A stretch of 64,000 nt of DNA from an uncultured Clostridia bacterium. GTDB lineage: Bacteria; Bacillota; Clostridia; Lachnospirales; Anaerotignaceae. The translations under genes were made by a program, and so were the position numbers. A model generated the notes under the pieces. That model saw nothing but the letters and a program-made list of their open reading frames with translations, searched no databases and was not told the origin of the DNA. The stretch spans positions 1-64,000 of the forward strand of contig CAMBLO010000002.1 of assembly GCA_945868505.1 (NCBI GenBank). Direction: 5' to 3'. Shown here one piece after another: positions 448 through 21,238 of the stretch (position 1 is its first letter; each line of letters begins with the position of its first letter).

Positions 448-2178
448 CTACTTTTCATTTTTTGCTTTGTGGTTGAATGCAACCCAACTAATTGCAGTTT
501 TTTGCAATTCTTCTAATAGTTCAAGATGTTTGCTGTAATTAATAGTGTTAAGACATCTACGTTTTTCTGTGAGCTTTATTACATTGCTCGCTTTTCCTTC
601 CATCCCAGTTTCTCGTTCAGTTCCAACAATGACCTGCCCCTCGTCAGACAAAAATAATTCTAATGATTTGAATATGCTCCCTAAGTTTTCGGCATCTTGA
701 CCTTGCTGATTAGGAGTGTCAACCACATAAAAATTGAAAGGGCTATTTGTTCTATATAAATTATATAGATACAGCGCCGACTGATACATATAAACTAATC
801 GTGGAGTTTCGCTTCCAGTACGGTCTATTATTTGCACAAAATCCCTTAGTTTGATGAATGTTTTAGGAAGATTTATCGCATCTGCTAAGGTGCGGCAATA
901 TCCTTCTATATCTTCTCTTATATCTTTGGAACGCTCTTTGGATTTCTTTTCGTTTATTTTCTCGTCAATTATTGCAATTTTAGAAACATATGAATCTATT
1001 TCTCCTTGTAGAACTTCCAATTGCCTCTTGCAGGATTCATATATCTCATACTGTCCCTTGTTTTTATAAAAAGAAGAATAGGATAGAAGTTGTTGAGAGT
1101 TCCGAACTTTTTGTTCAATAGACTGAATTTCTAAAGAGACACCGTTATATTTCTCCTTAAGTTCTTCTAATTCTTCTGTAGCAATAGATATGCTATTTCT
1201 CAGTTCTGTAATAAGCTTTTCACAATGAGCATAATCTGAAGTTATATTTAATTGTTCCTCTAATCCGTTTGAATAAATAGTGCCACAAATTGGGCAGACC
1301 AACTCATCTTCTTGAGTCATTGCAAATTCAATGTCCTTTTTTGTTTCTATGAGATTGTGTTCCACAACGTGCAATTTGTGTTGATTGACATATATATCAT
1401 TTTCCAAAACTGTCCTCTCTGCATTATAAGAAAATTGCATTTTCCTTAATTCTTCCGCCTTAGCAAGCAAAGATTCAATATCTGTTGTGACCTCTTCAAC
1501 GGATTCAATATTCTCAATTTGCGTTAGTGTAGATGTGATACGGGAAACAAAGCTTTGATTATAATTCAATTCTTTTTTCTTATCATCTTTTTCAAGTATA
1601 TGTTCTGCTTTTTGTGCTTGAAGTTCATAATACGTATCATCAAGGTAACCGCATACATATTTATTTGTATTTGGTTTCCAATCTTTAATGTACGCAACAT
1701 TACTGAAAGAATCAGCTATTTTACTCCATCCTTCATCTTGGTCAATATATTGAAATCTAAAGAGTAATGGCGGTGTTACATTGAATTGCTTACCATCTTT
1801 TGAAATGCAGGGCATTTTGATTTCTAAAATATCCATTAAACAGTTACTATATTCGTGAAAAGCTTCCGTTTCGATAATGCAAGAATAGGAATCCTCATTA
1901 TTCTCAAAAATCTGAAATTTTTTGCCTTGGCGAACAACACAAAACTGCTTTTCTCCATATTTAAAGAACAACAAATAAGCGGAAATCAGTTTTTTCCAAT
2001 CAGTTTCAATTCTTTTGCATTCACATCCCAAAGTAGTAAATATACTTTTGATAATTGAAGATTTGCCTGTTTTATTTCCTCCCAAAATAATATTAAGCCC
2101 ATTTTCAAAAGGAACCTCTAACGACCGAGACTCACTTTGACTGATTACTATCAGTTTTTTTATCGTTAGCCTTTTCAT
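448..2178 (-). CDS. SMC/Rad50-like ATPase of a defence operon (LmuB-like)
   Basis: The protein has 576 residues. A Walker A motif, GGNKTGKSS, is near residues 33-41, followed by a long charged coiled-coil region. A zinc-hook CPICG lies near residue 294, in the middle of the coil. A signature-like stretch GSETPR (about 451) and a Walker B variant FYVVDTPNQQ (about 481) complete the split ATPase head. This is the layout of the SMC-like ATPases in Lamassu and ABC-three-component defence systems, and the protein is somewhat shorter than typical LmuB. It is the last gene of a minus-strand operon, and its start lies inside the micro-ORF at 2132-2269, so translation is probably coupled. The likely role is sensing of DNA ends or structures with control of the neighbouring nuclease. 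The ATPase family is seen directly. The defence role is inferred from context. Confidence 0.8.
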   Translation of the reverse strand: MKRLTIKKLIVISQSESRSLEVPFENGLNIILGGNKTGKSSIIKSIFTTLGCECKRIETDWKKLISAYLLFFKYGEKQFCVVRQGKKFQIFENNEDSYSCIIETEAFHEYSNCLMDILEIKMPCISKDGKQFNVTPPLLFRFQYIDQDEGWSKIADSFSNVAYIKDWKPNTNKYVCGYLDDTYYELQAQKAEHILEKDDKKKELNYNQSFVSRITSTLTQIENIESVEEVTTDIESLLAKAEELRKMQFSYNAERTVLENDIYVNQHKLHVVEHNLIETKKDIEFAMTQEDELVCPICGTIYSNGLEEQLNITSDYAHCEKLITELRNSISIATEELEELKEKYNGVSLEIQSIEQKVRNSQQLLSYSSFYKNKGQYEIYESCKRQLEVLQGEIDSYVSKIAIIDEKINEKKSKERSKDIREDIEGYCRTLADAINLPKTFIKLRDFVQIIDRTGSETPRLVYMYQSALYLYNLYRTNSPFNFYVVDTPNQQGQDAENLGSIFKSLELFLSDEGQVIVGTERETGMEGKASNVIKLTEKRRCLNTINYSKHLELLEELQKTAISWVAFNHKAKNEK

Positions 2179-2269
2179 TATCTTTTTCCTCCTGCTGTTT
2201 TCGTAAATTTCTAATTAAAATTTTGTACTTTTGCTCTTGTTTAACTTTTTCAACTGAATTTTTGCTCAT
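2132..2269 (-). CDS. 45-residue charged micro-ORF between nuclease and SMC genes
   Basis: The ATG at 2269 lies inside the last codons of the DUF4297 gene (20-base overlap), and the TGA at 2132 lies 47 bases inside the SMC gene. The product is almost entirely helical-looking and charged (MSKNSVEKVKQEQKYKI at the N-terminus, then runs of K, E, Q and D). No family was recognised. The position matches the small middle component found between effector and ATPase genes in Lamassu (LmuC) and ABC-three-component operons, but this one is much smaller. It could be a miniature third subunit or merely a coupling leader for the ATPase gene. Confidence 0.45.
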   Translation of the reverse strand: MSKNSVEKVKQEQKYKILIRNLRKQQEEKDNEKANDKKTDSNQSK

Positions 2270-3341
2270 AATACAACACCTCAACTAACGATTTATCAAG
2301 AGAATCCGATAGGAGATTATGCTTTTGTAATTCTTGAATGCATAATCTTTTCAGGTCATTATTAAACCCATTTGTCTCACATGATTCACAATATGTAGAA
2401 ATTGTTTTTCGCAACACAACAACAATTTCTTGATATTTAACATCATTAACATCAAGCCACCTTGTATCGTGGAGCGTTTTTGCTGATTCTATACGATTAA
2501 TATCCTTGTCCGACAATGATTGAGTAATCAAGTAATCGTGAAATGCATCATAATTTCCGCTGTTCTTTATGTTACCATCAATTTTCTTGCCTATTTGAGC
2601 AATATCCACACCTTTTTTTTCAACTAAACTTTTCATACTAATAGGTACTTTGATTTTTTCTTTACTCTTTTTTCTTACATCATTTAGCAATTGCTGAAAA
2701 ATAAGATTGGCAGTATTGGACGGAATATTTTTGTCTGCCAAGTGGTTGAAAAATTTACCCATAGTTTGAGATTCATAAGTTGTTAGTTGTAGTTCCGATT
2801 TATGGACAAAAGTATTCTGAATAAACTCCTCAAAGACAGAATCAAAATTGCTCGGCATATCATCTAAAAATTCATTTTTAATCCTGTCTTTGATTTTTTC
2901 ATATAACGCAATATTTTCTGTCTGAAGCCTTTTCCCGTCTTCAATATATGACTGCCATAACAAAACCTCTTTATCAAAATCATTATTTGATACAAAATGG
3001 CAATGCGAACATTCAGCACCAAATGTCAAATAGTTGTAGAAAATAAAACCTAAAAAAGATTTTTTGTAGCTACCACTTTTTTTCTTTTCCCTTTTAGACA
3101 TTTCCGCAATAGTCCAGTCAGAAGAATCTTCTTTTGTCTTTATTTGAAAAAACTGATACTGCTGATTATTGGGAGAAAATTCAGCCATATCATCGTGAAA
3201 TTCACAAAAAACAATACACTCTGCATCTTCTTGAAGTTTACCTATTATATGGCATACAATCCAATGAACTTGATATTCAAATCTATTATAGGAGTCAGAA
3301 CCTGCTTGCTCACGCTGTTCAACAGTAAGGACGCTACTCAT
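2250..3341 (-). CDS. DUF4297 / Cap4-like dsDNA nuclease-domain protein
   Basis: The protein has 363 residues. The first third carries the DUF4297 (Cap4-type) nuclease pattern: an opening NRFEYQVHW helix, acidic residues HDDMAEF, and FFQIKTKE near residues 60-70, which is the Q-x-K version of the PD-(D/E)XK catalytic lysine motif. The remainder is helical and was not assigned. Cap4-like nucleases cut double-stranded DNA when a partner senses infection, and act as effectors in CBASS and in Cap4-type Lamassu. The start codon overlaps the abiEii stop (ATGA), and the end overlaps the micro-ORF. Because an SMC-like ATPase follows, this is best read as a LmuA-like effector. No CD-NTase gene is nearby, which argues against CBASS. 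Confidence 0.75.
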   Translation of the reverse strand: MSSVLTVEQREQAGSDSYNRFEYQVHWIVCHIIGKLQEDAECIVFCEFHDDMAEFSPNNQQYQFFQIKTKEDSSDWTIAEMSKREKKKSGSYKKSFLGFIFYNYLTFGAECSHCHFVSNNDFDKEVLLWQSYIEDGKRLQTENIALYEKIKDRIKNEFLDDMPSNFDSVFEEFIQNTFVHKSELQLTTYESQTMGKFFNHLADKNIPSNTANLIFQQLLNDVRKKSKEKIKVPISMKSLVEKKGVDIAQIGKKIDGNIKNSGNYDAFHDYLITQSLSDKDINRIESAKTLHDTRWLDVNDVKYQEIVVVLRKTISTYCESCETNGFNNDLKRLCIQELQKHNLLSDSLDKSLVEVLYYEQKFS

Positions 3342-4255
3342 AATTTGGGACTCCTTTCATTTTTATTCCATTTCATAATAAAGTTCCACTGCTCTTGCCA
3401 TTCTTTCTCATTCACAATCGCATCAAACACAGGCTCAAGAAAAGTCTGGATTTCCGTAATGACGAATGAAAACTCAAGCGTATTATCTTTTATGGTTTTC
3501 AAAAAGAATTTCCAACGCTTCTGCATATCTTCATCATCGCCAAGTGCAACAACACGCTTAAAACTATCTCTATCATAGGGAGTACCACGCCGCTGTAAGG
3601 TTTCAAATATAGCTGCCTGCAATTTTGCACCCTCAAAATCGAATGTCCTTGAAAGATAATAGATGTCATAAAAATCTTTCATTCTGCCTGTCAGCTCAAA
3701 ACGTTGCAGTATAGCATCAAACTTCTCAGCAATGGTGCTTTCAAGGGAATAAGTTTTGATTACAGGTGCTTCAAAGTCTGGAAGCTGAGTGTTGATTGTG
3801 CGTTCTTCGGCATGGGGGACTATAATATCGCCCACGCCTATATCAACATTGAACGGCACACGCACATTTTTTATTTGGGCAATAATCTGTGTACTGATAC
3901 CGTGATATTTTCTTTGCGGAGAAATCTCTTCAAAGCCTTTTGCTCGCATTTCTATATAATCGTTACCCGTCGGTGTGGCGATAATTTTACAAATCAACTC
4001 TTTTACATCATCTATTGCATTAGAGTATCCACGAAGCAGGAAATCGACATCAATGGTAGCTCGACTTTCAAAATTGGTTAGAGTATAAATGAACAATCCA
4101 CCTTTGAGTATTAGTGTATCCTCACACCCAGATTTTGATAGCTTTCTCAAAAATTCTTCCTGCACAAAAAGCTGCAAGCATTGCTGGTAGCTGATACCAG
4201 AGGCTTTTGCTTTATTTCTCAGCTTTGCCAGAACGGAAGCTGCAACATCTGCCAT
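3338..4255 (-). CDS. AbiEii/AbiGii nucleotidyltransferase toxin
   Basis: This is a DUF1814-type nucleotidyltransferase of 305 residues, the toxin of type IV AbiE systems. It shows the family motifs in order: LILKGGLF (about 50), RATIDVDFLL (about 65-74, with the metal-binding D-x-D), and a conserved lysine/KD block ending GRMKDFYDIYYLSR in the second half. AbiEii enzymes modify RNA (tRNA in the related MenT toxins) and stop growth on phage infection. The start was placed at the ATG overlapping the antitoxin stop (TAATG), rather than the GTG three codons earlier. Its own stop overlaps the next start by four bases, coupling the toxin to the nuclease gene downstream. Confidence 0.88.
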   Translation of the reverse strand: MADVAASVLAKLRNKAKASGISYQQCLQLFVQEEFLRKLSKSGCEDTLILKGGLFIYTLTNFESRATIDVDFLLRGYSNAIDDVKELICKIIATPTGNDYIEMRAKGFEEISPQRKYHGISTQIIAQIKNVRVPFNVDIGVGDIIVPHAEERTINTQLPDFEAPVIKTYSLESTIAEKFDAILQRFELTGRMKDFYDIYYLSRTFDFEGAKLQAAIFETLQRRGTPYDRDSFKRVVALGDDEDMQKRWKFFLKTIKDNTLEFSFVITEIQTFLEPVFDAIVNEKEWQEQWNFIMKWNKNERSPKL

Positions 4256-4863
4256 TACAACCACACTCCAATCAATTCTTTTACACGCGTTTGAACACGC
4301 AAAACTTTCGCATATTCTATAAGATTCGGTATATTCTTTTTCGGGTCTTTAACATAGCCCTGTACTGCTTTATTAAAAACCTCCTTATCCATCTTGTTCA
4401 TATTTCGCAGCACATCGCAAATAGTACGGTCACGGTCATAAATGCGGACTTTGTGGAAATCAATTTCACCTTCGGTTTCGCCCAGCGTAACCAACTCTGA
4501 CTCTACACGATATGCCTTTATAAACGGATAATCGATTTTTGTTCGCCGCTTAGAGACATTTTTATCTATTGCAAAGTTCCATTCAGCAGGATTTCTGTCA
4601 CTGTATCTATAATAGAATAGGGCAGTCTCCATACAGAGCACTGCATCGGGAAACAATCGATTGATAATGACAACTTCGCTTTCTCCATAATCTTGAGTCC
4701 AGTGATAGTAACCTCGCCTGACTCTTTCAATCAATCCTTCGTCTAAAAGTTGTTTTATATCTGCATAGTATAACTTTGAAGCTGTAAGTTCAGCAGTAGT
4801 CATAACATAATTATGACTGCTAAACAACATTCTCAGTGTCTCAATATCTTTATTCTGAAGCAT
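4255..4863 (-). CDS. AbiEi-family antitoxin / autoregulator
   Basis: The protein has 202 residues. An N-terminal winged-helix AbiEi_4-type domain contains MTTAELTASKLYYADI and the RRGYYHW turn, and a C-terminal antitoxin domain follows. AbiEi proteins repress their own promoter by binding inverted repeats and neutralise AbiEii without a stable complex. The ribosome site AGAGGTGA sits just upstream of the ATG at 4863, and a near-consensus promoter follows. As the first gene of the five-gene operon, it would set transcription of the whole set, including the nuclease and ATPase. Confidence 0.85.
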   Translation of the reverse strand: MLQNKDIETLRMLFSSHNYVMTTAELTASKLYYADIKQLLDEGLIERVRRGYYHWTQDYGESEVVIINRLFPDAVLCMETALFYYRYSDRNPAEWNFAIDKNVSKRRTKIDYPFIKAYRVESELVTLGETEGEIDFHKVRIYDRDRTICDVLRNMNKMDKEVFNKAVQGYVKDPKKNIPNLIEYAKVLRVQTRVKELIGVWL

Positions 4864-4919: not shown

Positions 4920-4948
4920 ATTATATTCGATTTTTCTCTTTAAGTCAA
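4920..4948 (-). promoter_or_regulatory. promoter of the abiEi-led operon
   Basis: On the minus strand TTGACT (4943-4948) is followed after exactly 17 bases by TATAAT (4920-4925), about 57 bases before the abiEi ATG. This is one of the best sigma-A-type promoters in the window. Confidence 0.8.
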
Positions 4949-5102: not shown

Positions 5103-5471
5103 TTAAATTACCTCAAAATGCTTCAACGCATCCTTTATAGCTTCAACTTTTTCTGGTGTCGGATGCTTCCTCGGCTGTTTCAATTCTTCTACCGCATTAG
5201 GAGCATCGTACATCGGCAAGCCTAAATCTCTCTTTACCTCTGCGATATATGCGGTATGTACTTTAAAGCCATATTTAGCTTCTATGTACTCTTTTATCAT
5301 TTTGTAGGTCACTCGCTCTTTGGGCTTGTATGCTTCGGCTCTTTTAGCGATGTTATCAAGCGGAACTTTACCCTCACCCTCGCCAAACTCAACTTTTACG
5401 TTGATATGTCCGTCTGGTTTTTTGTGGGAAAGCAGTACTACCGTCTCGACGTGCATATCAAATGAGAACAT
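5103..5471 (-). pseudogene. detached rlmD 3' tail (site C copy)
   Basis: A 122-codon frame opens with MFSFDMHVETVVLLS and continues as a tail about 95% identical in protein to the end of the recombinase gene at 8437-8781. It is clearly related to the end of rlmD at 23373. The first 37 bases also resemble rlmD (GGATATGTTC, then codons for HVETV), matching its MDMFPRTVHVETV. This is therefore an rlmD C-terminus cut from its methyltransferase part by insertion, or an element-borne copy of it. No methyltransferase domain or good ribosome site precedes it. It may be translated, but it cannot be an enzyme by itself. Confidence 0.75.
5440..5447. other. attachment-site core C
   Basis: ACCGTCTC sits within a 23-base stretch shared exactly with site B at 8774, both followed on the minus strand by the rlmD tail. 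It is the presumed crossover region of the serine recombinase, corresponding to the HVETV codons of rlmD. Confidence 0.6.
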
Positions 5472-5670: not shown

Positions 5671-6312
5671 CTATTCTAACATTTCTGATAATTTTAATTG
5701 TTTTAAAAATCTATCAGCAATATAATATTGGATATCTAATTTTTCTACTGGCTGTTTTCTAGCTCTAATAGATATTTTAAGTTTTCCAGCAGACACACTC
5801 ATCAAACCTATATTTAACTCTCTAAATTGTTGCCTATCTACTTTCTGCACATATTCAGAGCTTAATGCAACATATACTTCATTTGCATATTGTTTATATC
5901 TAATGGCTTGCTCTAATCCGGCTTTCCAGTCAGAAATTTTCGCTTCTACAGCAATAAAATTCTTAGTAACAGCGTCAATTTTTTTTACAGAAGTAATATA
6001 ATTTCCACTAATTTTAATATAGCCAAGATTTTCTAACTCACGAAGAAAATGATGAAATTTCCGGTTCACCCTTTCATCTGTAATTTTCATTTCATTCAGA
6101 CTTATTTTTTTGTGATTATAAATTCCGTTAAAATAGTAATATGCATTAAAATACTCATCAAATACAATATTGCTTCTATTTATATCTGTTGTATAAACTA
6201 TATCTGCAATATTGTTTCCTCCTCGTAGTTCTCTGACAATATATTGAGTCCCAAATCTTTCTTGTAAATCAAGAACCAATTTTTCCACCAATTCTTTTTC
6301 GTTTACAAACAT
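5671..6312 (-). CDS. PD-(D/E)XK nuclease-like protein, partner of the kinase
   Basis: The family was not recognised by name. The protein has 213 residues. RGGNNIADIVY (D37) and, after an insertion, FIAVEAKISDWKAGLEQA (E123, K125) have the spacing and context of a PD-(D/E)XK fold, including the helix and QxxxY-like stretch that usually follow. The insertion (about 75-110, NRKFHHFLRELENLGYIKIS) looks like a winged helix. The ribosome site AGGTGG precedes the ATG. It starts 21 bases after the kinase stop, so the two genes are one operon. A role as a nuclease effector or DNA/RNA-binding regulator is inferred, and the catalytic reading should be tested by structure prediction. Confidence 0.55.
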   Translation of the reverse strand: MFVNEKELVEKLVLDLQERFGTQYIVRELRGGNNIADIVYTTDINRSNIVFDEYFNAYYYFNGIYNHKKISLNEMKITDERVNRKFHHFLRELENLGYIKISGNYITSVKKIDAVTKNFIAVEAKISDWKAGLEQAIRYKQYANEVYVALSSEYVQKVDRQQFRELNIGLMSVSAGKLKISIRARKQPVEKLDIQYYIADRFLKQLKLSEMLE

Positions 6313-6333: not shown

Positions 6334-8331
6334 TCAAACAATCTTTTTTAAATTCTTTAACAGTTTATAATAATCCGTATTCTTTTGGCTCCCCATAATT
6401 TTCTTTGGTATAGAATCCAAATTCTTCAGTGCGACATCAATACGTTCTCTTAAATAAATAATACGTTCTTCTCCATCATACTGATTAAATTTATCCACTT
6501 CTTCTATCATCATTTGCCAGTGATGCAACTGTACTCCTTTATCTCCAGTACCTATTTCAATAGCCGATTTACCATTACACCACTTACAATTGCATCCACC
6601 AAAATAATTATATATTTGTTCAAATGCAAACGTGTCTTTTTTCGGATAAGTCAAAAAAGATAATACTTGTGGAAAATAAAATTTTGAGTATAAATTAAAT
6701 GAATCTTTTTCTTCCTTTATATATTGCTCATCGAAATAATCTATACTTGCTAATCCAAGTGAAAAACCATGTATCCCCTTAGCAATCAATGTTAATCCTA
6801 AAGGGATTGGAACTTTCAAAGCAATAACAGGTTTACTTGTATATTTCTGTAAAGCAACCATAAATTCAAGATAACTCCCTAATGATTGCTCATTTAACTG
6901 TTTCATATCCGAAACTTGCACAATAAATCCGTCTACTTTCGCATGAACAAAGTATGATAATATCTTATCTGCTTGAAAAACCAAATGCCCAAGCCCAATT
7001 GATATCATTGCATATTTTTCTTTTCCTTCCTCGACCACCTGTGAGCTTTCATCAATCAATTGAATATTCATTCTAATCCAATCATCAACTTTTTCTACAG
7101 GATAATCGGTATTACTTATATAATGATACGGTAAAATTAATTTCTGCCCTATCGAAACTGTCGCATACCATTTATCTATATACTCTTTTCGTTTTTGAGG
7201 ATTATGTAAGTATTCCAAGGAAATTACGCCTTTTTCTGGCGCATAAGGCAATTCTACAAGCCCTTTTGTATTGCCAAACGCAACATAAGACAATCTTTGA
7301 GTTGATGGATCAATTATTACATTCTCAAAATTGTTATTAGCAAAATGTAAATGCAGTTTTTTCATCCAATTTTGAACATGAATAGGATAAATTATATCTG
7401 CTTTATTAACTTTCTCAAATTGTTCCGTAACATCTTTTTCTCGATATACCCACGCATAATATTTTCCTACAGTTACTAATTCTTCTTGAATATTCTTTTT
7501 ATCAAATGCGTCTATGAATTCATCAACAGTCTGAAAGCGTGCAAATGGTTCCTTTGCCGTTGCCTTAAATATAATATTTTCTAACCCATCACTTATAGTT
7601 GGATTGTACTGTTTTGGCGGTATGATAGGATCATTCAGAATTTTCATCAATAACTCGGGTAATGTTGAAGCTTTATAGGGAATATTTTTAGTCAGCATTT
7701 CATATAAAATTATTCCCAAGGCATATATATCTGCTCTATAGTCAATATGTTTGCTATCCTTCAATTGTTCTGGAGACATATATAGCGGTGAACCGATTTG
7801 AGTTCCTGTTGATGTTATTGAGGAAAAATCTATTATTTTACTCAAACCATAATCAATTATTTTTACATTTAGATTGTCATCAATCATTATATTGTCTGGT
7901 TTTAAATCTCTATGAATAATACCCGCATTTTCAATAATAGTATTATGCAAATCCCTTACGCCATGCAATACGCTTACAAATATGCGAATCAACGTCTCCA
8001 GTTCAACATCATTTTTCAAAAAACTTCTTAAAGTCCTTCCTGAAAAATACTCCATTACTATGACATATTCCATTATGCCAAACTCATTTTTAAAGTAAAA
8101 ATCTTCCTGATATTTAATCAGATTTTCTCCTTTTACATTCTTTAAAACATCTATTTCTCTTGTGATTCGATTTTGTTCGTTCTTAAATTCATCTAAAATA
8201 TAGGTTTCTGATAAAACTTTTGCAGCATATACATTATTTTCTTTTGATACTCTATATACAGCACCAAAACTCCCACTTCCAAGCGCTTCTTCAAATAAAT
8301 ATCCGTTAATCACTTGTCCAACAATATTCAT
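6334..8331 (-). CDS. Ser/Thr protein kinase with a large novel C-terminal domain
   Basis: The protein has 665 residues. Residues 1-275 are a complete Hanks-type kinase: GSGSFGAVY loop, AAKVL lysine, IIHRDLKPDNIM catalytic loop, DYG in place of DFG, and MSPE for APE. There is no membrane segment or PASTA repeat, so it is not a PrkC-type cell-wall kinase. The second half includes a predicted alternating beta/alpha region (for example KVDGFIVQVSDM) and a C-x-C-x2-C motif (GGCNCKWCNGK, about residue 580) followed by QLHHW. This recalls the zinc site of tRNA-guanine transglycosylases, but that link is only a suggestion. The ribosome site AGGAGG lies 8 bases before the ATG. Its place between att sites with a nuclease-like partner suggests phage defence. 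Confidence 0.8.
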   Translation of the reverse strand: MNIVGQVINGYLFEEALGSGSFGAVYRVSKENNVYAAKVLSETYILDEFKNEQNRITREIDVLKNVKGENLIKYQEDFYFKNEFGIMEYVIVMEYFSGRTLRSFLKNDVELETLIRIFVSVLHGVRDLHNTIIENAGIIHRDLKPDNIMIDDNLNVKIIDYGLSKIIDFSSITSTGTQIGSPLYMSPEQLKDSKHIDYRADIYALGIILYEMLTKNIPYKASTLPELLMKILNDPIIPPKQYNPTISDGLENIIFKATAKEPFARFQTVDEFIDAFDKKNIQEELVTVGKYYAWVYREKDVTEQFEKVNKADIIYPIHVQNWMKKLHLHFANNNFENVIIDPSTQRLSYVAFGNTKGLVELPYAPEKGVISLEYLHNPQKRKEYIDKWYATVSIGQKLILPYHYISNTDYPVEKVDDWIRMNIQLIDESSQVVEEGKEKYAMISIGLGHLVFQADKILSYFVHAKVDGFIVQVSDMKQLNEQSLGSYLEFMVALQKYTSKPVIALKVPIPLGLTLIAKGIHGFSLGLASIDYFDEQYIKEEKDSFNLYSKFYFPQVLSFLTYPKKDTFAFEQIYNYFGGCNCKWCNGKSAIEIGTGDKGVQLHHWQMMIEEVDKFNQYDGEERIIYLRERIDVALKNLDSIPKKIMGSQKNTDYYKLLKNLKKIV

Positions 8332-8436: not shown

Positions 8437-10419
8437 TTAGATGACTTCAAAATGCTTTAACGCTTCCTTTATCGCTTCTACCTTCTCCGCTGTCGGATGC
8501 TTCCTCGGCTGTTTCAATTCTTCTACCGCATTAGGGGCATCATACATCGGCAATCCTAAATCTCTCTTTACCTCTGCGATATATGCGGTATGTACTTTGA
8601 AGCCATATTTAGCTTCTATGTACTCCTTTATCATTTTGTAGGTCACTCGTTCCTTGGGCTTGTACTCTTCGGCTCTTTTAGCGATACTATCAAGCGGAAC
8701 TTTTCCCTCACCTTCGCCAAACTCAACTTTTACGTTGATATGTCCGTCTGGCTTTTTGTGGGAAAGCAGTACTACCGTCTCGAGCATTGTCCCAGATTCC
8801 AAGGGCAGTTCTGTTACTTCCTGCCCATTCACAGGAACTGGAAAATTGAACACCATGTTCCTGATCCAGTTTCCATCCTTCTGTTTTTCTGGATACAGGT
8901 CAATTCGTTCAATAAACGCTCTCATAAACTCTTTTTGTTCGATTTCCGTGGCAGCACCGTATACTTCATCAAAGGCCAGTAGAAGTTGGTAAATATTATC
9001 GCCGGAGATTTTCTCCTGGCGGATACTCTGAATCTGGCTCTTCACTTCATCTATCTGTGTCTCGATTTCTTCTATTCTACCATACTGTTCGTCATATCGA
9101 CGCTGCAAATCCAAAATTTTTCTATCAAAATAGGGATCGTTAATATCCAGCGTGTCCATCTGACGCTCCAGCCTTGCTTTAATGCCCAAGGTCTGACGAA
9201 GCTGTGCCTGGAGTGTAGAAAGCTGCTTTTCCAAATCCTCGGTATCAACGGATGTCCCTATTTTCTCTTTGATTGCCTTTGAAAATTGCGGGTCATTGAC
9301 CATAGCCGAAATGATTGCCGCAACCATGCGGTTCATCTCCGTCTGCTCAATGTTCACACGGAAGGTGCATTTGTGCCCGGTTGCGCCCAACGTATTTTTG
9401 CAGTAATAGTAATAGCGGGTTTTCTTATCCTTACTGTGTGCCTTGGCTATATTTCCATAAAGGCTTTTGCCACAGCAGGGACATTTCAGAATACCGGACA
9501 AGATATGCGCGTGTTCCGGGTCAATTACTTTTTCCCTCCTAAAGGCGTTGGTCTTCCGTTTATCCTGTGCCAGGTTCCAATCTTCTTCTGAAATGATCGC
9601 CTCATGTTGCCCTTCATAGATTGGAAACTCGTCTTGCTCGACCACGTGCATCTCGTTTCTTGTTCCCAGCTTCTTTTCCGTTCTGCGGCGGCCATAGGCA
9701 ATCTTACCCATGTAAACAGGATTGTCCAAAACATCCTTCACAAAGTTGGAAGAAAAGCCGGGGATCGTGCCATTCTGACGGATTTTCTTTTTGTATCCGT
9801 GGTCATTCAGATACTTCGCCACACCGTTAATTCCATCGTTGGTATGGATATATCTGTCATAAATGAGCCTTACCACTTCTACTTCATCTTCGGCAATTTC
9901 CAATTTTCCATCCACTAATTTGTAGCCATACGGAGCAAATCCACCGTTCCACTTTCCCTCACGGGCTTTCTGCTCACGGCCTGCCATGGTTTGCGTCCGA
10001 ATGTTTTCACGTTCAATTTCCGCCACAGCAGAAAGGACGGAGATCATCAGCTTGCCGGAATCTTTGGAAGAATCAATGCCATCCTCCACACAAATCAGGT
10101 TGACACCAAAGTCCTGCATCAGCTGTAAGGAATTGAGAACATCCGCCGCATTTCTTCCAAAGCGGGAGAGTTTGAACACCAGTACAAACGAAATATCGTC
10201 CTTGCCCTGTTGGATGTCACTCAGCATCCGCTGGAACTCCAGCCGCCCCTGGATGTTCTTGCCGGAGAAGCCCTCGTCAGAATACTCTCCGACAATGGCC
10301 ATATCTTCATACTCAGCATACTTCCGTAGCTTATCCTTCTGGGCGTCCAGACTGTATCCATCCACCTGCATAGAGGTGGAAACTCTTGTGTAAATATAGC
10401 ACTTAGTCCGTCTTTTCAT
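8437..10419 (-). CDS. large serine recombinase fused in frame to an rlmD tail
   Basis: The N-terminal resolvase domain has YTRVSTSMQ (catalytic serine 14) and GRNAADVLNS. It is followed by a recombinase domain, a zinc ribbon (CPCCGKSLYG, then YYYCKN) and a coiled coil. The native protein ends near residue 546, at ETVVLLS. The remaining 115 residues are the rlmD C-terminal tail, read through the attachment site. The ATG at 10419 is preferred over the one at 10443, because AAAGGAG lies 8 bases before it and inside the longer frame. The enzyme would integrate and excise the element at the HVETV codons of rlmD. Whether the tail affects activity is unknown. Confidence 0.92.
   Translation of the reverse strand: MKRRTKCYIYTRVSTSMQVDGYSLDAQKDKLRKYAEYEDMAIVGEYSDEGFSGKNIQGRLEFQRMLSDIQQGKDDISFVLVFKLSRFGRNAADVLNSLQLMQDFGVNLICVEDGIDSSKDSGKLMISVLSAVAEIERENIRTQTMAGREQKAREGKWNGGFAPYGYKLVDGKLEIAEDEVEVVRLIYDRYIHTNDGINGVAKYLNDHGYKKKIRQNGTIPGFSSNFVKDVLDNPVYMGKIAYGRRRTEKKLGTRNEMHVVEQDEFPIYEGQHEAIISEEDWNLAQDKRKTNAFRREKVIDPEHAHILSGILKCPCCGKSLYGNIAKAHSKDKKTRYYYYCKNTLGATGHKCTFRVNIEQTEMNRMVAAIISAMVNDPQFSKAIKEKIGTSVDTEDLEKQLSTLQAQLRQTLGIKARLERQMDTLDINDPYFDRKILDLQRRYDEQYGRIEEIETQIDEVKSQIQSIRQEKISGDNIYQLLLAFDEVYGAATEIEQKEFMRAFIERIDLYPEKQKDGNWIRNMVFNFPVPVNGQEVTELPLESGTMLETVVLLSHKKPDGHINVKVEFGEGEGKVPLDSIAKRAEEYKPKERVTYKMIKEYIEAKYGFKVHTAYIAEVKRDLGLPMYDAPNAVEELKQPRKHPTAEKVEAIKEALKHFEVI
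8774..8781. other. attachment-site core B (recombinase end of the element)
   Basis: ACCGTCTC marks the point where recombinase codons change to rlmD-tail codons. The sequence on the tail side matches site C, and the sequence on the other side is unique to the recombinase gene. Confidence 0.65.
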
Positions 10420-10645
10420 GGCTGGAACTCCTTTCTCCGGCATGTTTCTGTTCAGCCGGTGATTTTATCAATCCCTCATTGCGGATGTAATACTCCAAAA
10501 GACGCAGGACATATTCTGGCGCATGGCGGTTATCCAGCTCCCATTCCGTTACCGTCCGATAGGGGATATGAAAGAATTTACAAAAGTCCTTACGGTTCAT
10601 ACCGGTCATTTCCCGCAGTTCTTTTATTTTGGTTTTGCAGTCCAT
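10403..10645 (-). CDS. XRE-like HTH protein next to the recombinase
   Basis: The protein has 80 residues from the ATG at 10645, which follows a GGAG at good spacing. A longer frame to 10675 is less likely. MNRKDFCKFFHIPYRTVTEWE is a clear helix-turn-helix, followed by EYVLRLLEYYIRNEG. Small proteins of this type are common in Lachnospiraceae elements and in XRE/antitoxin families. Its end overlaps the recombinase start by 17 bases, so the two are probably co-translated. The perfect-spacing promoter upstream is embedded in a long inverted repeat, suggesting autoregulation. Confidence 0.75.
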   Translation of the reverse strand: MDCKTKIKELREMTGMNRKDFCKFFHIPYRTVTEWELDNRHAPEYVLRLLEYYIRNEGLIKSPAEQKHAGERSSSHEKTD

Positions 10646-16402: not shown

Positions 16403-16976
16403 TGCGTTGTCGCTGCGGCGAGACGAGGGATGATATACCTTTGCTTCCTTTTCCGGTCAGTCGGATTCTGCCCGCTGTGCAAATCTTGATTTCGTCCTTG
16501 TCCGTACAAAATCCGCCTGTCCTACTGCCGCCGAAAAGTGACTGTCGCCCGCTATCTGCCCACCCAGCAGATAGCGAGTCCAGTCCCTTTCCGGCGTCAG
16601 CCGGAAGCAAAGGTATAACACACTAGACTTTCCTACGGAAAATCGTGTGCCAACAGGGGTGCTACTCGCCCCTATTGGAAACCCAGAGCAGAGGGGATAC
16701 TTCCCTCTGGACACCCTTAGTTTTCTTTGCACTTGCAGTCTGAAACAAGTGTAAAGAAAATACAAAAAGCATCTGCGCATCGCTTGTCGAAGCGCAAATC
16801 GTCCTTTTGTACAGATAATCCCCAATTGGATAAATTATAATTTCAAATTGTTAACATCTGCTGTAGTAGTAAAAAGTAATGCGGAACATAGTAAGATAAT
16901 AGATAGTACACCCGTGTTTTTTAACACCATACAAAGATTTTTACATAATGAATTAAGCCTGAAAGGAATATGGATT
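16403..16976. other. 574-base non-coding region with three hairpins
   Basis: No frame here has a ribosome site and plausible protein. Three strong hairpins stand in a row (16550-16576, 16650-16678, 16689-16709). The restriction gene starts after an AT-rich stretch at 16830-16976, which probably holds its promoter, though no clear boxes were found. The GC content drops at about 16,820, marking the join between element backbone and cargo. Confidence 0.5.
16550..16709. repeat. row of three stem-loops
   Basis: Stem 1 is CGCTATCTGC with GCAGATAGCG (10 bp, 7-base loop). Stem 2 is CCAA-AGGGG with CCCCT-TTGG around a 9-base loop. Stem 3 is CAGAGGG with CCCTCTG. None has a T-run long enough for a simple terminator, so this is a structured RNA, oriT or replication site candidate. 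Confidence 0.45.
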
Positions 16977-18890
16977 ATGGCAAAGAAAGAAGTAAAAACC
17001 GATTTATGGGTAGCTCGTCAGCTTGATGACTCCCAGATTAAATATGATGCCCAAGGCAGTAATGTGAAGGAAATTAACGATGCCCTTCAAAGTGCTTCGA
17101 AGCGTGGCACAGGAAAAGTTGGGTATCCGGAATATGTCGCGGTTGTTAAGGATTTTGTTATAGTTATTGAGGATAAAGCCGACCTGACTAAGCATCAAAA
17201 GCTAACTGATGCAGGAATTCTATCTGTTGATCAAAAAGATATTGCAAACTATGCTGTTAATGGAGCATATTTTTACGCAAAGCACATTGCTCAAAACAGT
17301 GCATTCCATAAAATCTTTGCAATTGGTGTTGCCGGTGACGAAAAGCATCATAAAATTACTCCTCTATATGTAGACGATAGAGAAGGGTATAAGGTGTTGC
17401 CTGATATTGAGTCTTTTACATCATTCACTGTTGCTAATATTGAGGAGTATTACACTCGCTATGTTCTTTCAGAAAAGACAGATGTAGAAAAAACCACAGA
17501 AGAAATTTTGAAGGACGCCGCAGAACTACATGAATATCTGCGCACTTATGGCTCGCTAAAAGATCAGGATAAGCCTTTGGTGGTTTCGGGCATTCTTCTT
17601 GCACTGGATGACAAGTTTTTCAAACCCAGTGATTTGCTCGGCGATGAGACTACTACAGACGGCCAGTTGATATATGACGCAATCCAGCGTCGTTTGAAGG
17701 CCTCCAATGTTGGCCCCGATGCAAAACGTGATAAACTAATGAGTGAATTTTCGATTATTCGCACAAGTGCCCGCTTGAACGAGATCGATCAAAAGCTGGG
17801 TAAAACACCGTTGAAATTCTATACCGAATTCTTGAAAAAGAATGTTTTTGACAACATAAAATATCGCAGTTCCAGCGAGGACTTCATCGGAAGGTTCTAT
17901 GGAGAATTTATGAGCTACTCTGGAGGTGATGGTCAAACACTGGGTATTGTCCTTACACCTCGTCATATTTGTGACCTATTCTGTGATTTGTTGAATATTC
18001 AGGCTACGGATATTGTGCTTGACCCCTGCTGCGGTACCGCTGGTTTTCTTGTGGCTGCAATGCACCATATGCTTGAAAAGGCTGGTGCTGATCAAACTAA
18101 GCGGAAGAACATCAAGAAAAAGCAGTTACACGGATTTGAGCTTCAAAGTAATATGTTTGCAATCGCTGCGACCAATATGATTCTTCGTGATGATGGTAAT
18201 AGTAATATTAAATGCGAGGACTTTTTGCGTCAAAATCCTGCTCAAGTGCAACTTAAAGGTGCAACTGTTGGAATGATGAATCCTCCCTATTCCCAAGGAA
18301 CCAAAGCTGATCCTTCACAGTATGAACTATCGTTCGTAGAGCATTTGCTTGACTCTTTGACCGAAGGAGCACGCGCTGCAGTAATTGTTCCACAGTCTTC
18401 TATGACGGGTAAAACAAAAGATGAGCAAGCATTTAAGGAAAATATTCTGAAAAATCACACTTTGGAAGGTGTTATTACCTGCAATACCGACACTTTCTAT
18501 GGTGTAGGTACTAATCCTGTCATTGCGATTTTTACTGCCCATGAGCCCCATCCCGCTGATAAGCTTTGCAAATTTATTGATTTCCGAAACGATGGCTATG
18601 AAGTGCGTGCACATATTGGGTTGGTTGAGGGTGACTCCGCTAAAGACAAGCGTCAGCATTTACTGGATGTATGGTTTGGTCGGACAGAGGCAGCTTCTAA
18701 ATTTTGCGTTGAATCTACGGTAAAGGCTGAGGATGAGTGGTTACATTCTTTCTTCTATTTTAACGATGACATACCAACGGATGCAGATTTTGAAAAAGCA
18801 ATTGGAGATTATTTGACTTTCGAATTCTCTATGGTTATGCAAAACAGAGAGTATTTGTTTGAGGGAGGCAATAACCATAATGAAGATTAA
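16977..18890 (+). CDS. BcgI-like fused restriction-modification subunit
   Basis: The protein has 637 residues from the ATG at 16977 (AAAGGA upstream), a length typical of BcgIA-type alpha subunits. An N-terminal nuclease-like domain includes DFVIVIEDKADLTKH (about 60-75). It is followed by a helical linker and an N6-adenine methyltransferase with motif I LDPCCGTAGFL (about 347) and motif IV NPPYS (about 434). With the specificity subunit next to it, it forms a type IIB/type I-like enzyme that both methylates and cuts. The stop overlaps the specificity gene by 11 bases. Confidence 0.85.
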   Translation: MAKKEVKTDLWVARQLDDSQIKYDAQGSNVKEINDALQSASKRGTGKVGYPEYVAVVKDFVIVIEDKADLTKHQKLTDAGILSVDQKDIANYAVNGAYFYAKHIAQNSAFHKIFAIGVAGDEKHHKITPLYVDDREGYKVLPDIESFTSFTVANIEEYYTRYVLSEKTDVEKTTEEILKDAAELHEYLRTYGSLKDQDKPLVVSGILLALDDKFFKPSDLLGDETTTDGQLIYDAIQRRLKASNVGPDAKRDKLMSEFSIIRTSARLNEIDQKLGKTPLKFYTEFLKKNVFDNIKYRSSSEDFIGRFYGEFMSYSGGDGQTLGIVLTPRHICDLFCDLLNIQATDIVLDPCCGTAGFLVAAMHHMLEKAGADQTKRKNIKKKQLHGFELQSNMFAIAATNMILRDDGNSNIKCEDFLRQNPAQVQLKGATVGMMNPPYSQGTKADPSQYELSFVEHLLDSLTEGARAAVIVPQSSMTGKTKDEQAFKENILKNHTLEGVITCNTDTFYGVGTNPVIAIFTAHEPHPADKLCKFIDFRNDGYEVRAHIGLVEGDSAKDKRQHLLDVWFGRTEAASKFCVESTVKAEDEWLHSFFYFNDDIPTDADFEKAIGDYLTFEFSMVMQNREYLFEGGNNHNED

Positions 18891-19977
18891 CAAAAAGAAC
18901 TGGGCTGCATTCACAGTCGAGGAATTATTTGATGAAATCAAGGCAACTAAAGGAAAAACAACTGGCCAACTGGTTAAGGGTGATGACGTTCCATACATTG
19001 CAGCAGCAAAAACAAATAATGGTTTTGCTGGTATGTGTAGTGCAAAAGAGCATCCAGAATGGGTATCTAATGGAAACGCTATTGTTTTTGTTCAATTAGG
19101 TGATGGGGCTGCTGGCCTTGCTCATTATGTACCTATGAGTTTTATTGGAATGAGTGGAAAGACATCAAGCGGCTATAATTCGAAGATTTCAAAAGATAGT
19201 GGTATTTTTATTGCCAGATGTCTCAGTTCTAATAAAGCTATTTTTTCTCACGGTCACAGTTGGACTGGTCGTAGATTGTTGAGCACCAAAACAATGTTGC
19301 CTACAAACGCTGACGGACAACCAGACTATGACTATATGACAGAGTATATCCAGCAGGAACGCAAAGCATTACAGGAGAAGTATCGAAACATATGCCAAAA
19401 ACGAATTGCTAAGTTAGGCAAACGCATTAAAATTCCCTCAATTAGCCAAAAGCAATGGAAAGCGTTCCTAATTTCTGACATATTTGACATCATGCCGGGC
19501 AAACGCTTAGTTGCAGCAAACTCCACCCCCGGAAACAGGCCATTTATCGGTGCTTTGGATAACAACAATGGTGTAGCACATTTTGTGAACGATACAAATG
19601 CGTCTCTGGACAAGAATGTGCTTGGAGTAAATTACAATGGAAACGGTATGGTTATTGGCTTTTACCATCCGTATGAGTGCATTTTCTCTGATGATGTTAA
19701 GCGATTTCACTTAAAGAACCATAAGGACAACAAGTTTGTTCTACTGTTTATGAAGGTAGCAATTTTACAGCAAAAAAGCAAATTTGGTTATCTGTATAAA
19801 TTTAATGCAGAACGCATGGCAAATACCCGAATAATGCTCCCTGTTACAGATGAAGGAATACCTGACTACCAGTACATGGAGCAGTATGCAAAAAATATGA
19901 TGCTACGAAAATATAAGCAGTATTTAGCTTATCTCGATTCAAAAGGAAAAGCGGAATCTGATACTACTAGTGTTTAG
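18880..19977 (+). CDS. restriction specificity subunit (S / BcgIB-like)
   Basis: The protein has 365 residues. Two target-recognition halves repeat the same layout: KKNWAAFTVEELFDEIKATKGK and, near the middle, SQKQWKAFLISDIFDIMPGKR. Each ends with a coiled-coil spacer (YMTEYIQQERKALQEK; YMEQYAKNMMLRKY). This is the HsdS/BcgIB architecture that recognises a bipartite site. The ATG at 18880 follows GAGGGAGG. An earlier frame opening at 18859 lies in the methyltransferase gene. Confidence 0.85.
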   Translation: MKINKKNWAAFTVEELFDEIKATKGKTTGQLVKGDDVPYIAAAKTNNGFAGMCSAKEHPEWVSNGNAIVFVQLGDGAAGLAHYVPMSFIGMSGKTSSGYNSKISKDSGIFIARCLSSNKAIFSHGHSWTGRRLLSTKTMLPTNADGQPDYDYMTEYIQQERKALQEKYRNICQKRIAKLGKRIKIPSISQKQWKAFLISDIFDIMPGKRLVAANSTPGNRPFIGALDNNNGVAHFVNDTNASLDKNVLGVNYNGNGMVIGFYHPYECIFSDDVKRFHLKNHKDNKFVLLFMKVAILQQKSKFGYLYKFNAERMANTRIMLPVTDEGIPDYQYMEQYAKNMMLRKYKQYLAYLDSKGKAESDTTSV

Positions 19978-20031
19978 TAACAAGCGGTTCCTAAATGGAT
20001 GCATCCCAGTATTGAGGAAAACGAGGATAAC

Positions 20032-21219
20032 ATGGATAAGATAATTAAATTTCCTGTGGATACCGGAAAAGTTGTCATTTCAGAAGATACAAAATCAACT
20101 CTTAGAAACCTATTTTCTGGATGTAGAGTAAATTTCTTGTTTGGCGCCGGATTTTCCGCAAATCTGTTAGGTACTTTAAACAATAACGAGGTAATTTTTG
20201 AAGCGCTGCAAAAATACCAAGCGAAAAATGAGGATGAAAGGAAAAAAGTGACGATACTCTTCGCTTTTTTGTATTGGTCATTTTTCGTTAGATGTATTGA
20301 GCCCATTTCCTCTAAAATATCGACATATGATTCCTCATTTGATCCATATAAAGAATTCGGAGACATTGTATACCGAATTTTTTCTGAAAGAGGCAATCCT
20401 GCGTTAGATAGGCAGTTTAGCATTTTTACAACCAATTATGATCCAATAATCGAGCTGATTTTTGACCATTCAAATTGCATATGCAATGATGGCTTTGAGG
20501 GGAGAATTGAGCCTCGTTTTGCCACTGATAATTATTCGAAAACATATTACAGACAAGCCATATTCTCCAATAGGAAAGCAGAAATTCCTTCTGTGAATCT
20601 TTTGAAATTACACGGATCTGTTACTTGGAGCCAAGACATTTTCTGGGGCGGTATTATATATCGACAGTATCGGGATAAAATAGGGTACTTTACAAATACT
20701 TACTCAACGCTGTTCGATACTACTATGGTGTCAACTATTGATGCACATTTTACAGCGAATCGGCCAGATGAAGCTAATAAGCAAATTCAATCTTTATTTG
20801 CAAGCAGTATTTTTGACACATTGCTTGCTAAAGAGGATGACTACGGCAAATTCATTCAAGCGTACAAAATGGCTTTTCTAATTGTGAATCCAACCAAGGA
20901 AAAATTTAGTGACACGCTACTGAACAAGAATTACTATGAACTTTTACGTATTTTCTCTAATGAATTAGAGAAGGAGAACTCACTTCTGGTGGTCAATGGT
21001 TTTTCTTTTAGGGATGAGCATATCCTAGATTTAGTAAAACGCTCCATGGTTAACCCATCCTTGAAAATACTCATTTTTGTATATCAGGCCACCGCAATTG
21101 GGGATTTCCAAAGGCTATTCGGTGAGGTAAAAAATAATAACATTACATATATTGCGCTTGATGGTGAAAACCTGTCTTTGAACTATTTCAATCAGATTTT
21201 GTCGCATATCCATTCCTAA
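20032..21219 (+). CDS. SIR2-domain defence protein
   Basis: The protein has 395 residues from MDKIIKFPVD, which follows a GAGG. A longer frame from 19999 is possible. NFLFGAGFSANLLG (about 34-47), FTTNYDPIIEL and LLKLHGSVTW (about 193) are the NAD-binding motifs of SIR2-like proteins. The C-terminus has LVVNGFSFRDEHILD, typical of defence SIR2_2 proteins. Such proteins deplete NAD in infected cells. It sits 19 bases before herA, matching the known SIR2-HerA pair. Confidence 0.9.
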   Translation: MDKIIKFPVDTGKVVISEDTKSTLRNLFSGCRVNFLFGAGFSANLLGTLNNNEVIFEALQKYQAKNEDERKKVTILFAFLYWSFFVRCIEPISSKISTYDSSFDPYKEFGDIVYRIFSERGNPALDRQFSIFTTNYDPIIELIFDHSNCICNDGFEGRIEPRFATDNYSKTYYRQAIFSNRKAEIPSVNLLKLHGSVTWSQDIFWGGIIYRQYRDKIGYFTNTYSTLFDTTMVSTIDAHFTANRPDEANKQIQSLFASSIFDTLLAKEDDYGKFIQAYKMAFLIVNPTKEKFSDTLLNKNYYELLRIFSNELEKENSLLVVNGFSFRDEHILDLVKRSMVNPSLKILIFVYQATAIGDFQRLFGEVKNNNITYIALDGENLSLNYFNQILSHIHS

Positions 21220-21238
21220 AAGAAAGAGGTGAATTGGT

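Follow-up and report, generated by a model that had tools for sequence, protein, structure and literature searches.

A conserved candidate microprotein in Lamassu defence loci and an AbiE toxin–antitoxin pair at the head of one such operon

Organisation of the locus

Five genes are read off the minus strand at this locus, and all coordinates given here are those of the window, the whole 64,000-nt stretch of DNA that was analysed. The first gene (4255..4863) encodes an AbiEi antitoxin of 202 aa with an N-terminal AbiEi_4 domain (PF13338, 3.3e-07; PADLOC AbiEi, 2.6e-69). It lies 5' of a gene (3338..4264) for an AbiEii nucleotidyltransferase toxin (PF08843, 4.1e-45; PADLOC AbiEii, 7.1e-89), which is 308 aa long if read from the GTG at 4264 or 305 aa from the ATG at 4255. 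In both Pfam and PADLOC the pair has the arrangement of a type IV toxin–antitoxin system, a winged-helix AbiEi ahead of an AbiEii nucleotidyltransferase. Next come LmuA, a Cap4/DUF4297 nuclease effector of 363 aa (2250..3341; PF14130, 9.7e-24; PADLOC LmuA, 3.3e-147), a micro-ORF with an ATG start that encodes 45 aa predicted to form a single helix (2132..2269), recognised by its cross-locus conservation, and LmuB, an SMC/Rad50-like ATPase of 576 aa with a CPxCG hook (448..2178; PADLOC LmuB, 5e-250).

With the ATG start of AbiEii, successive genes overlap by 1, 4, 20 and 47 bases, exactly the five head-to-tail frames described in an initial annotation of this DNA, which had also named AbiE and the Lamassu-like nuclease and ATPase correctly as one overlapping unit. 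By eye, a Shine–Dalgarno-like stretch precedes each start (gaggtg for the micro-ORF, aggagg for LmuB). The zinc hook claimed for the ATPase is borne out by seven aligned LmuB sequences, in which CPxCG is invariant, as are GKS and DxPxQQ.

A sigma-70-like promoter, TTGACT-N17-TATAAT, lies on the minus strand at 4920..4948, 85 bases before the AbiEi start, with 11 of 12 consensus matches. Of the 21 close AbiE loci (the window counted), 16 have a like site at -84 to -87; in the outliers it lies at -148 (L008, L009 and L012), at -74 (L103) or is absent (L102). The earlier description of one strong promoter is a fair one. The pattern is present in 3 of 19 distant AbiE pairs (L104–L122), and over the whole region there was no surplus of promoter-like sites (21 observed against 18.9 expected). 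Repeats flanking the promoter agree at 13 of 16 bases in the window, against a maximum of 12 in ten shuffles; they are clear in L013 and L097 (15 of 16 bases), and most loci show an agreement that does not surpass that of shuffles.

Identity of the nuclease and ATPase

Judged by their sequences, the nuclease and ATPase are the LmuA and LmuB of Lamassu and thus already known; their matches to PADLOC Lamassu models rule out an undescribed pair. The best models, PDLC00247 for LmuA and PDLC00256 for LmuB, cover nearly the full length of each protein. The window LmuB matches the solved LmuB of 9ux7 in a profile search (9e-43), whilst Foldseek matched the predicted LmuA model to solved LmuA (9ux7_C, 1.8e-05; 9hr5_C, 4.6e-05) and to Cap4 (6vm5, 3.5e-05), all three with TM-scores of 0.3–0.5. 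No ABC-3C C-terminal domain was found in LmuA with E-values up to 1, the search returning Cap4_nuclease and a weak USP32_N only.

These are features of type I Lamassu: an SMC-like LmuB with nucleotide-binding motifs (PDLC00256, 5e-250) and a Cap4/DUF4297 LmuA directly 5' of it. Type I is also defined as having two genes and no third component, whereas here a conserved micro-ORF occupies the junction; the definition itself may fall short.

Searches for close LmuB relatives returned 2 of 58 sampled genomes in the window's own family (itself and one at 26%). Among the matches listed, with at most three candidates per genome, they returned 3 of 392 in the order (itself, 27% and 26%), 3 of 398 in the phylum (itself, 26% and 23%) and 1 of 397 in the Cuneatibacter family (the centre itself). 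The LmuA profile matched 4 of 299 genomes of the phylum, self included. No lead came from viral contigs searched for LmuB relatives with the window protein as sole query, from phage records searched for LmuA or from the PDB searched with the C-terminal part of a neighbouring kinase.

A conserved microprotein at the LmuA–LmuB junction

The micro-ORF, previously treated as a minor part of the locus, proved to be its most unusual one, with a core conserved across three phyla. This core, [FY]-x-x-L-[IV]-R-N-L-R, is found at the LmuA–LmuB junction of systems whose LmuB proteins are only 21–27% identical; in the window, LIRNLR is encoded at 2218–2201, inside the 71 bases that separate LmuA from LmuB. 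All 13 clade relatives match the 45-aa ORF over its full length, and in a scan that excluded L008 the frame was open in 12 of them.

Across a wider set of 34 junctions the motif is present in 22, where 0.35 would be expected; of 704 further 270-base pieces from these loci, 9 contain it. These counts do not measure prevalence: LmuB profile A2, the source of most distant loci, was built solely from systems with the microprotein (L032 weakly so). The 34 junctions comprise 23 loci with the motif, filtered at 15% difference, and 11 motif-less loci that were left unfiltered and include near relatives; L032, with LLLNLGG only, is counted as a miss. Adding the junctions left out, namely L052 and L055–L057 (no LmuA by profile) and L059 (a stop within the motif and an LmuB that also looks broken), gives 22 of 39; L062 and L063 stand outside the junction counts. 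Amongst the 24 loci fetched after the first sighting of the motif it is present in 15, 7 of them admitted by inspection. The 11 motif-less junctions, which include three of the first nine plasmid loci as well as L015, L016 and L017, indicate that Lamassu can exist without the microprotein. Presence of the motif tracks the LmuB tree, needing 3 changes against 11.6 in shuffles (none of 500 as low); near-copies and broken LmuB genes were excluded from the trees, which label L032 as micro-positive and carry long-branch warnings.

Conservation of the core is at the level of protein. In frame, 821 of 1149 codon differences (71%) are synonymous, against 184 of 1000 (18%) and 39 of 1005 (4%) in the two shifted frames, and none of 1000 column permutations gave an in-frame share as high. 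Leu -2 is encoded by all six of its codons and Arg 0 by AGA, AGG, CGA, CGT and CGG, the residue remaining constant in each case. Such synonymous codon use rules out the motif as a mere ribosome-binding site for LmuB or an RNA element; in the window clade, moreover, it lies 5' of a separate aggagg. A related possibility is that the micro-ORF is a translational coupler that carries ribosomes from LmuA to LmuB and whose peptide is itself inert. In the loci inspected the micro-ORF does overlap LmuB, in many of them LmuA too, and the LRK codons fall near the expected LmuB ribosome site in several. A coupler would, however, need no fixed amino acids, yet Leu -2 and Arg 0 are held constant across varied codons, and the separate aggagg site in the window clade tells against it too; we consider it unlikely.

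The microprotein is basic and predicted to form one helix (residues 3–40). Sixteen microproteins were compared with PADLOC with E-values up to 1, giving no family, and with Pfam, giving weak single-member matches only; very short proteins score poorly. Neither LmuC nor any other convincing family was matched in PADLOC, Pfam or PHROG. A profile match to ribosomal protein eL18 (E 5.1e-05, about 20 residues) had no other support and was set aside, since convergence can give a short basic helix such a match. We propose, from these sequence comparisons, that the tiny gene encodes a conserved and easily overlooked candidate protein common to distant Lamassu systems.

Recurrence of the gene order and the partners of AbiE

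The order AbiEi–AbiEii–LmuA–micro-ORF–LmuB is found whole in 9 of 13 related loci and in part in two; the other two begin inside LmuA and none contradicts it. As the order recurs in related loci, it is not the product of chance neighbours. The two modules might nevertheless be a normal AbiE and a normal Lamassu that sit independently in a mobile defence island with no functional link, sharing transcription only because of their proximity. The behaviour of AbiE elsewhere favours this. Of 250 sampled genomes from the Cuneatibacter family, 30 carry the same AbiEii family, at 32 places in all. A coupled same-strand ORF follows AbiE at seven of these places (coupling being taken as -35 to +20, limits chosen after seeing the data), and LmuA is next at two; at others, restriction-modification genes or nothing coupled come next. 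AbiE pairs L095–L103 (AbiEii 73–86% identical) have no adjoining Lamassu, L018 carries a nearly identical pair ahead of a different LmuA, and none of the 38 Lamassu loci outside the window clade has an AbiE match, six of these having less than 500 bases 5' of LmuA. AbiE and Lamassu parts also diverge differently within the same loci (AbiEi 82% and the rest 99–100% in L013; AbiEi 96% and LmuA 83% in L005), so the modules evidently recombine as well. Against independence, all nine clade relatives with enough upstream sequence share the order with AbiE in front, and their hosts are named as Lachnospiraceae and Oscillospiraceae; AbiEii and LmuA either overlap by 4 bases or are separated by 18. We give independence a real though minority chance of being correct. 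In L008, L011 and L094 a damaged LmuA or LmuB stands beside readable AbiE, and LmuA or LmuB is also damaged in L014.

AbiE looks like a portable head module; in relatives, what follows it can be restriction-modification, HerA-like or, for distant AbiE, Gabija genes. The initial annotation had seen in AbiE–Lamassu a new fused system, a view at odds with AbiE's occurrence without Lamassu or before restriction-modification genes and with its absence from the 38 outside loci. It had also supposed that freely varying neighbours would mark two unrelated modules placed side by side: the downstream partner of AbiE does vary, but the upstream partner of this Lamassu clade is constant. Its further suggestion was a two-tier defence in which Lamassu acts first and AbiEii serves as backup; on this model the toxin would be released should Lamassu fail or AbiEi synthesis stop. 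The co-oriented, overlapping order is compatible with this, but no sequence feature ties Lamassu activation to loss of AbiEi and the partner of AbiE varies, making such a backup role quite improbable.

A possible three-protein Lamassu behind AbiE

In three-component Lamassu a middle protein stands between sensor and nuclease; no such protein is ascribed to the two-gene kind. The reading we prefer, at a probability of roughly 0.55, is that the locus encodes a type I Lamassu with a hidden third subunit, the 45-residue basic helical protein coded across the LmuA–LmuB junction, placed behind the AbiEi–AbiEii pair with all five genes transcribed from the AbiEi promoter. It builds on the family identities, the overlaps, the recurrence of the order, the protein-level conservation of the microprotein and the promoter site common to close AbiE pairs. 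Counting against it are the motif-less junctions, the stop in L059 and the LLLNLGG of L032, the weak repeats around the promoter, the scarcity of the promoter pattern amongst distant AbiE pairs, the differing divergence of AbiE and Lamassu, and the damaged LmuA or LmuB genes.

In other Lamassu systems LmuB reportedly senses abnormal DNA (ends, hairpins), whereupon LmuA is freed, assembles and cuts DNA; by analogy, LmuB and LmuA would act likewise here. The microprotein would stand in for LmuC, the middle component, its LIRNLR helix holding LmuA to LmuB in a resting complex; with no LmuC match, this replacement is argued from gene position. AbiEi would repress the shared promoter, keeping a dangerous nuclease low, and AbiEii would make loss of the cassette costly.

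More broadly, we propose on comparative grounds that many 'two-gene' Lamassu systems have the microprotein as a third subunit, missed so far because its gene overlaps its neighbours. The full generalisation, to which we assign slightly less than even odds, is that a large share of such systems are three-protein machines in which a LIRNLR microprotein of ~42–74 residues bridges LmuA and LmuB or restrains LmuA on LmuB, and that AbiE is a portable, autorepressed and addictive head for different defence systems. If true, this would change the parts to be cloned, purified and modelled for two-gene Lamassu systems and provide a minimal peptide with the potential to switch a defence nuclease. All-frame translation of overlapping defence-gene junctions, compared across phyla, could reveal further missed subunits, and the AbiE result yields the testable claim that a toxin–antitoxin pair can front different defence systems.

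Comparison with known systems

The AbiE pair resembles other AbiE type IV toxin–antitoxin systems in its order, with the antitoxin before the toxin, in its overlapping start and stop codons and in its Pfam AbiEi_4 and AbiEii domains; it differs from a plain AbiE system in that the operon runs on into Lamassu. Type I Lamassu likewise has a Cap4 nuclease LmuA followed by an SMC-like LmuB, but is defined by two genes with neither a 45-aa ORF between them nor AbiE 5' of them. Type II Lamassu, DdmABC and ABC-3C are described as having three components with a small middle one, and share with the window this three-part layout, a Cap4 LmuA and an SMC-like LmuB. In contrast to type II and ABC-3C, the middle protein of the window is tiny and has no match among PADLOC families and no convincing one in Pfam or PHROG, and LmuA, unlike the ABC-3C effector, gives no match to the ABC-3C C-terminal domain. 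The solved LmuAB–DNA complex (9ux7/9ux8) is a two-component Lamassu whose LmuB is related to that of the window and whose LmuA matches it in fold; in a quick tree its LmuB groups with those of L052 and L056, where no motif is seen (SH-aLRT 100).

Gene identity and operon layout

On the minus strand of the window, the AbiEi reading frame (4863-4255) is followed by those of AbiEii (from 4264 or 4255, two starts being possible, to 3338), a 363 amino acid Cap4/DUF4297 protein (3341-2250), a 45 amino acid micro-ORF (2269-2132) and a 576 amino acid SMC-like ATPase (2178-448). The initial annotation gave overlaps of 1, 4, 20 and 47 bases between these frames, and the same values are obtained when AbiEii begins at ATG. 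By eye, the start of each of the five genes is preceded by a ribosome-site-like stretch (gaggtg for the micro-ORF, aggagg for the ATPase), and a TTGACT-17-TATAAT site lies 85 bases upstream of the AbiEi start.

Pfam identifies AbiEi (AbiEi_4, 3.3e-07), AbiEii (4.1e-45) and the nuclease (Cap4_nuclease, 9.7e-24), with the ATPase giving only weak SMC_N/AAA matches under their cut-offs. PADLOC recognises AbiEi (2.6e-69) and AbiEii (7.1e-89) and, because it matches nearly the full length of the nuclease to LmuA (3.3e-147) and of the ATPase to LmuB (5e-250), we assign this pair, on sequence grounds, to Lamassu, type I by gene content. The nearest PDB sequence to the window's LmuB is the LmuB of the solved LmuAB-DNA complex 9ux7/9ux8 (profile E 9e-43). 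The AlphaFold model of LmuA (mean pLDDT 76, weak beyond about residue 260) matches Hachiman 8zue, LmuA 9ux7_C, Cap4 6vm5 and Salmonella LmuA 9hr5, with E values of 3.8e-08 to 4.6e-05 and TM-scores of 0.3-0.5. Residues D51, Q66 and K68, which we take to be consistent with a PD-(D/E)XK site, are kept across the LmuA rows (n=9), as are GKS, CPxCG and DxPxQQ across the LmuB rows (n=7).

Recurrence of the AbiE-Lamassu order

A pattern scan of GTDB contigs for close LmuB proteins yielded at least 13 loci, several of them near-copies. The order AbiEi-AbiEii-LmuA-micro-ORF-LmuB, which the initial annotation had proposed as a single unit, recurs in 9 of the 13, counting two (L012 and L013) whose contigs end within LmuB. 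Two further contigs (L007, L014) include just the 3' part of AbiEii and two (L006, L010) start inside LmuA; in the L006 genome, AbiEi, AbiEii and the beginning of LmuA stand at the end of a second contig. Some loci are decayed, with an internal loss in LmuA (L008), both LmuA and LmuB broken (L011) or LmuB broken (L014). The window's Lamassu clade is rare, since no further close LmuB was found in samples of its own family (58 genomes), order (392) or phylum (398), nor, besides the centre itself, in 397 genomes of the Cuneatibacter family; in the larger samples, up to three candidates per genome were scored among the matches listed. Outside the clade, none of 38 Lamassu loci has an AbiE match, six of these having fewer than 500 bases upstream of LmuA.

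A conserved microprotein between LmuA and LmuB

An unlisted ORF with the core of the window's micro-ORF is present at the LmuA-LmuB junction of five of nine plasmid Lamassu systems (Aliarcobacter, Polaromonas, Agrobacterium, Haematobacter and Mesorhizobium), for which the PLSDB gene table, itself incomplete, has no such gene. The Roseomonas plasmid junction bears a weak likeness to the microprotein, and those of Vibrio, Klebsiella and Planococcus lack the core. One of four distant genome loci (L023, from the same taxonomic order as the window) carries it, the junctions of L015, L016 and L017 being without; LmuB of L023 and of the aligned plasmid systems is 21-24% identical to that of the window. 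Among 24 Lamassu loci fetched later (L038-L061), 15 are micro-positive, eight are without the motif and one (L059) has a stop inside it. Eight of the 15 matched the first pattern automatically, five were variants (IRSLR, VRSLR, IRNQR, IRNTR) admitted by inspection and two, L040 (VRNRR) and L041, lay outside the first scan.

The motif pattern occurs in 22/34 junctions versus 0.35 expected from Markov shuffles; elsewhere in these loci, 9 of the 704 pieces of 270 bases contain it. Mapped on an LmuB tree of 40 rows, the micro-positive label changes three times versus 11.6 in shuffles (0/500 as low). The 9ux7 LmuB, whose structure is solved, clusters with L052 and L056; neither of these shows the motif.

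Codon usage argues that the microprotein is conserved as a protein. Of 23 non-redundant cores, 22 keep leucine -2, with all six codons used, 22 keep arginine 0 (AGA, AGG, CGA, CGT, CGG) and 20 keep asparagine +1. Synonymous changes make up 821 of the 1149 in-frame codon differences within the core's six codons (71.5%), compared with 184/1000 and 39/1005 in the shifted frames; column permutation of the core gives a mean of 60.5% and a maximum of 68.6%, with 0/1000 reaching the observed value. The window's core (2218-2201) lies within the 71-base gap between LmuA and LmuB, and therefore the coding of neither neighbour accounts for its conservation. Were the micro-ORF purely a translational coupler, its fixed amino acids would be left unexplained.

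A net charge of +2 to +12, counting K, R, D and E, makes the microprotein basic, and a single helix is predicted for it across residues 3-40, the first 30 or so with high confidence. None of the PADLOC families fits it, nor does any in PHROG or Pfam convincingly, and the PDB sequence matches of its profile are eL18 N-termini only (best 5.1e-05), probably reflecting convergence of a basic helix.

AbiE as an apparent portable module

AbiE appears to be a portable module. In a Cuneatibacter-family sample centred on the genome of L005 (G455) and placed in Lachnospiraceae by tree, AbiEii relatives (E up to 1e-50) occur in 30 of 250 genomes at 32 places, all of which were inspected (31 regions plus L005). 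At seven of the 32, a same-strand ORF starts -35 to +20 bases from the AbiEii stop; three (L097, L115, L124) have too little downstream sequence to judge coupling, and in L123 AbiEii is split. The coupled ORF is LmuA in L005 and L094, truncated in the latter. In L098 (5694-8674) the AbiE pair is followed by a type II methylase and a HerA-like gene, and in L106 (4284-8267) by a type III methylase and its restriction subunit; L105 has a truncated frame behind AbiEii whose start resembles that of the L106 methylase gene. An unknown gene is coupled to AbiEii in L112 and L117 (library scans took in L117 and left out L105 and L112), that of L117 (2240-6702) forming a three-gene set with mad8/HerA-like and HATPase genes.

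Outside this sample, GajA of a Gabija system starts (ATG) 47 bases downstream of a distant AbiE in L128 (2235-5987; AbiEii 31%) and is followed by GajB. On the viral contig L018 (5402-7831), the AbiE pair shares 99.5% and 96% identity with that of the window and precedes a different LmuA-like protein with an ABC-3C C-terminal domain (CTD7, PF20283, 2.1e-08); the match of this protein to the PADLOC LmuA profile begins at profile position 114, the first part of the profile being absent, and the stretch ends soon after. Upstream of AbiE in the window, a short ORF (5103-5471) is a near-copy of the C-terminal end of a large serine recombinase (8437-10443). Because a matching tail also precedes AbiE in L018, the cassette appears to be located at the 3' end of a recombinase.

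Other genes in the window include a 665 amino acid protein kinase (6334-8331; Pkinase 4.3e-46, PADLOC PD-T4-6 3.5e-60), which has a CNCKWC stretch and a 376 amino acid C-terminal part that matches no PDB sequence. The adjoining 5671-6312 protein has a weak sce7726-family match, under cut-off, and the two are possibly a further defence pair. By eye, a methylase and specificity-like pair, a SIR2-like ORF and a HerA-like ORF stand in a row at 16848-23065, which suggests a defence island, and 1-256, near the LmuB 3' end, resembles a transposase gene end, presumably IS256-like.

Promoter and possible AbiEi control

Whatever gene lies downstream, 16 of the 21 close AbiE loci have the promoter site at -84 to -87; it is at -148 in L008, L009 and L012 and at -74 in L103. 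The pattern is unmatched in L102, and 3 of 19 distant loci (L104-L122) match it. Direct repeats flanking the promoter are clear in L013 and L097 (15/16 bases), are also above ten shuffles in L011, L098 and L099 (14) as well as in L122, a distant locus (15), are borderline in the window and L004 (13 versus a shuffle maximum of 12) and are not above shuffles in most other loci tested. In L013, L097, L011, L098 and L099, the repeats on either side resemble ATATAGTAAAGTACCC and are 14-15/16 alike within a locus, making them candidate AbiEi operators. AbiEi autorepression is known in other AbiE operons, according to PMC7725324. We infer that AbiEi and its promoter govern the window's Lamassu genes.

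Comparison with known Lamassu systems

The nuclease-ATPase pair and AbiE are both already known. No published description of the microprotein or of the AbiE-Lamassu unit was found in the literature searched; the 2025 Lamassu structural papers, outside that search, may mention either. AbiEi of the upstream pair may hold Lamassu expression low, and AbiEii would make loss of the cassette costly.

In reviews of Lamassu, LmuB is described as the likely sensor and LmuA as the effector, with a small middle LmuC missing in some systems (PMC10586767); the triggers given are hairpins and DNA ends (PMC12904381). In Vibrio cholerae DdmABC, LmuA is of the Cap4 kind and the middle protein is a small one with DUF6521; once the system is activated, LmuA is released and assembles into a tetramer, which switches on the nuclease (PMC12409362). 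The PADLOC paper reports LmuC for about 10% of the Lamassu systems, which it names type II (PMC8565338). Because the window's microprotein occupies the same place in the operon as LmuC, we propose that it may bind LmuA and LmuB, keeping the nuclease restrained or aligned up to the point where LmuB encounters abnormal DNA.
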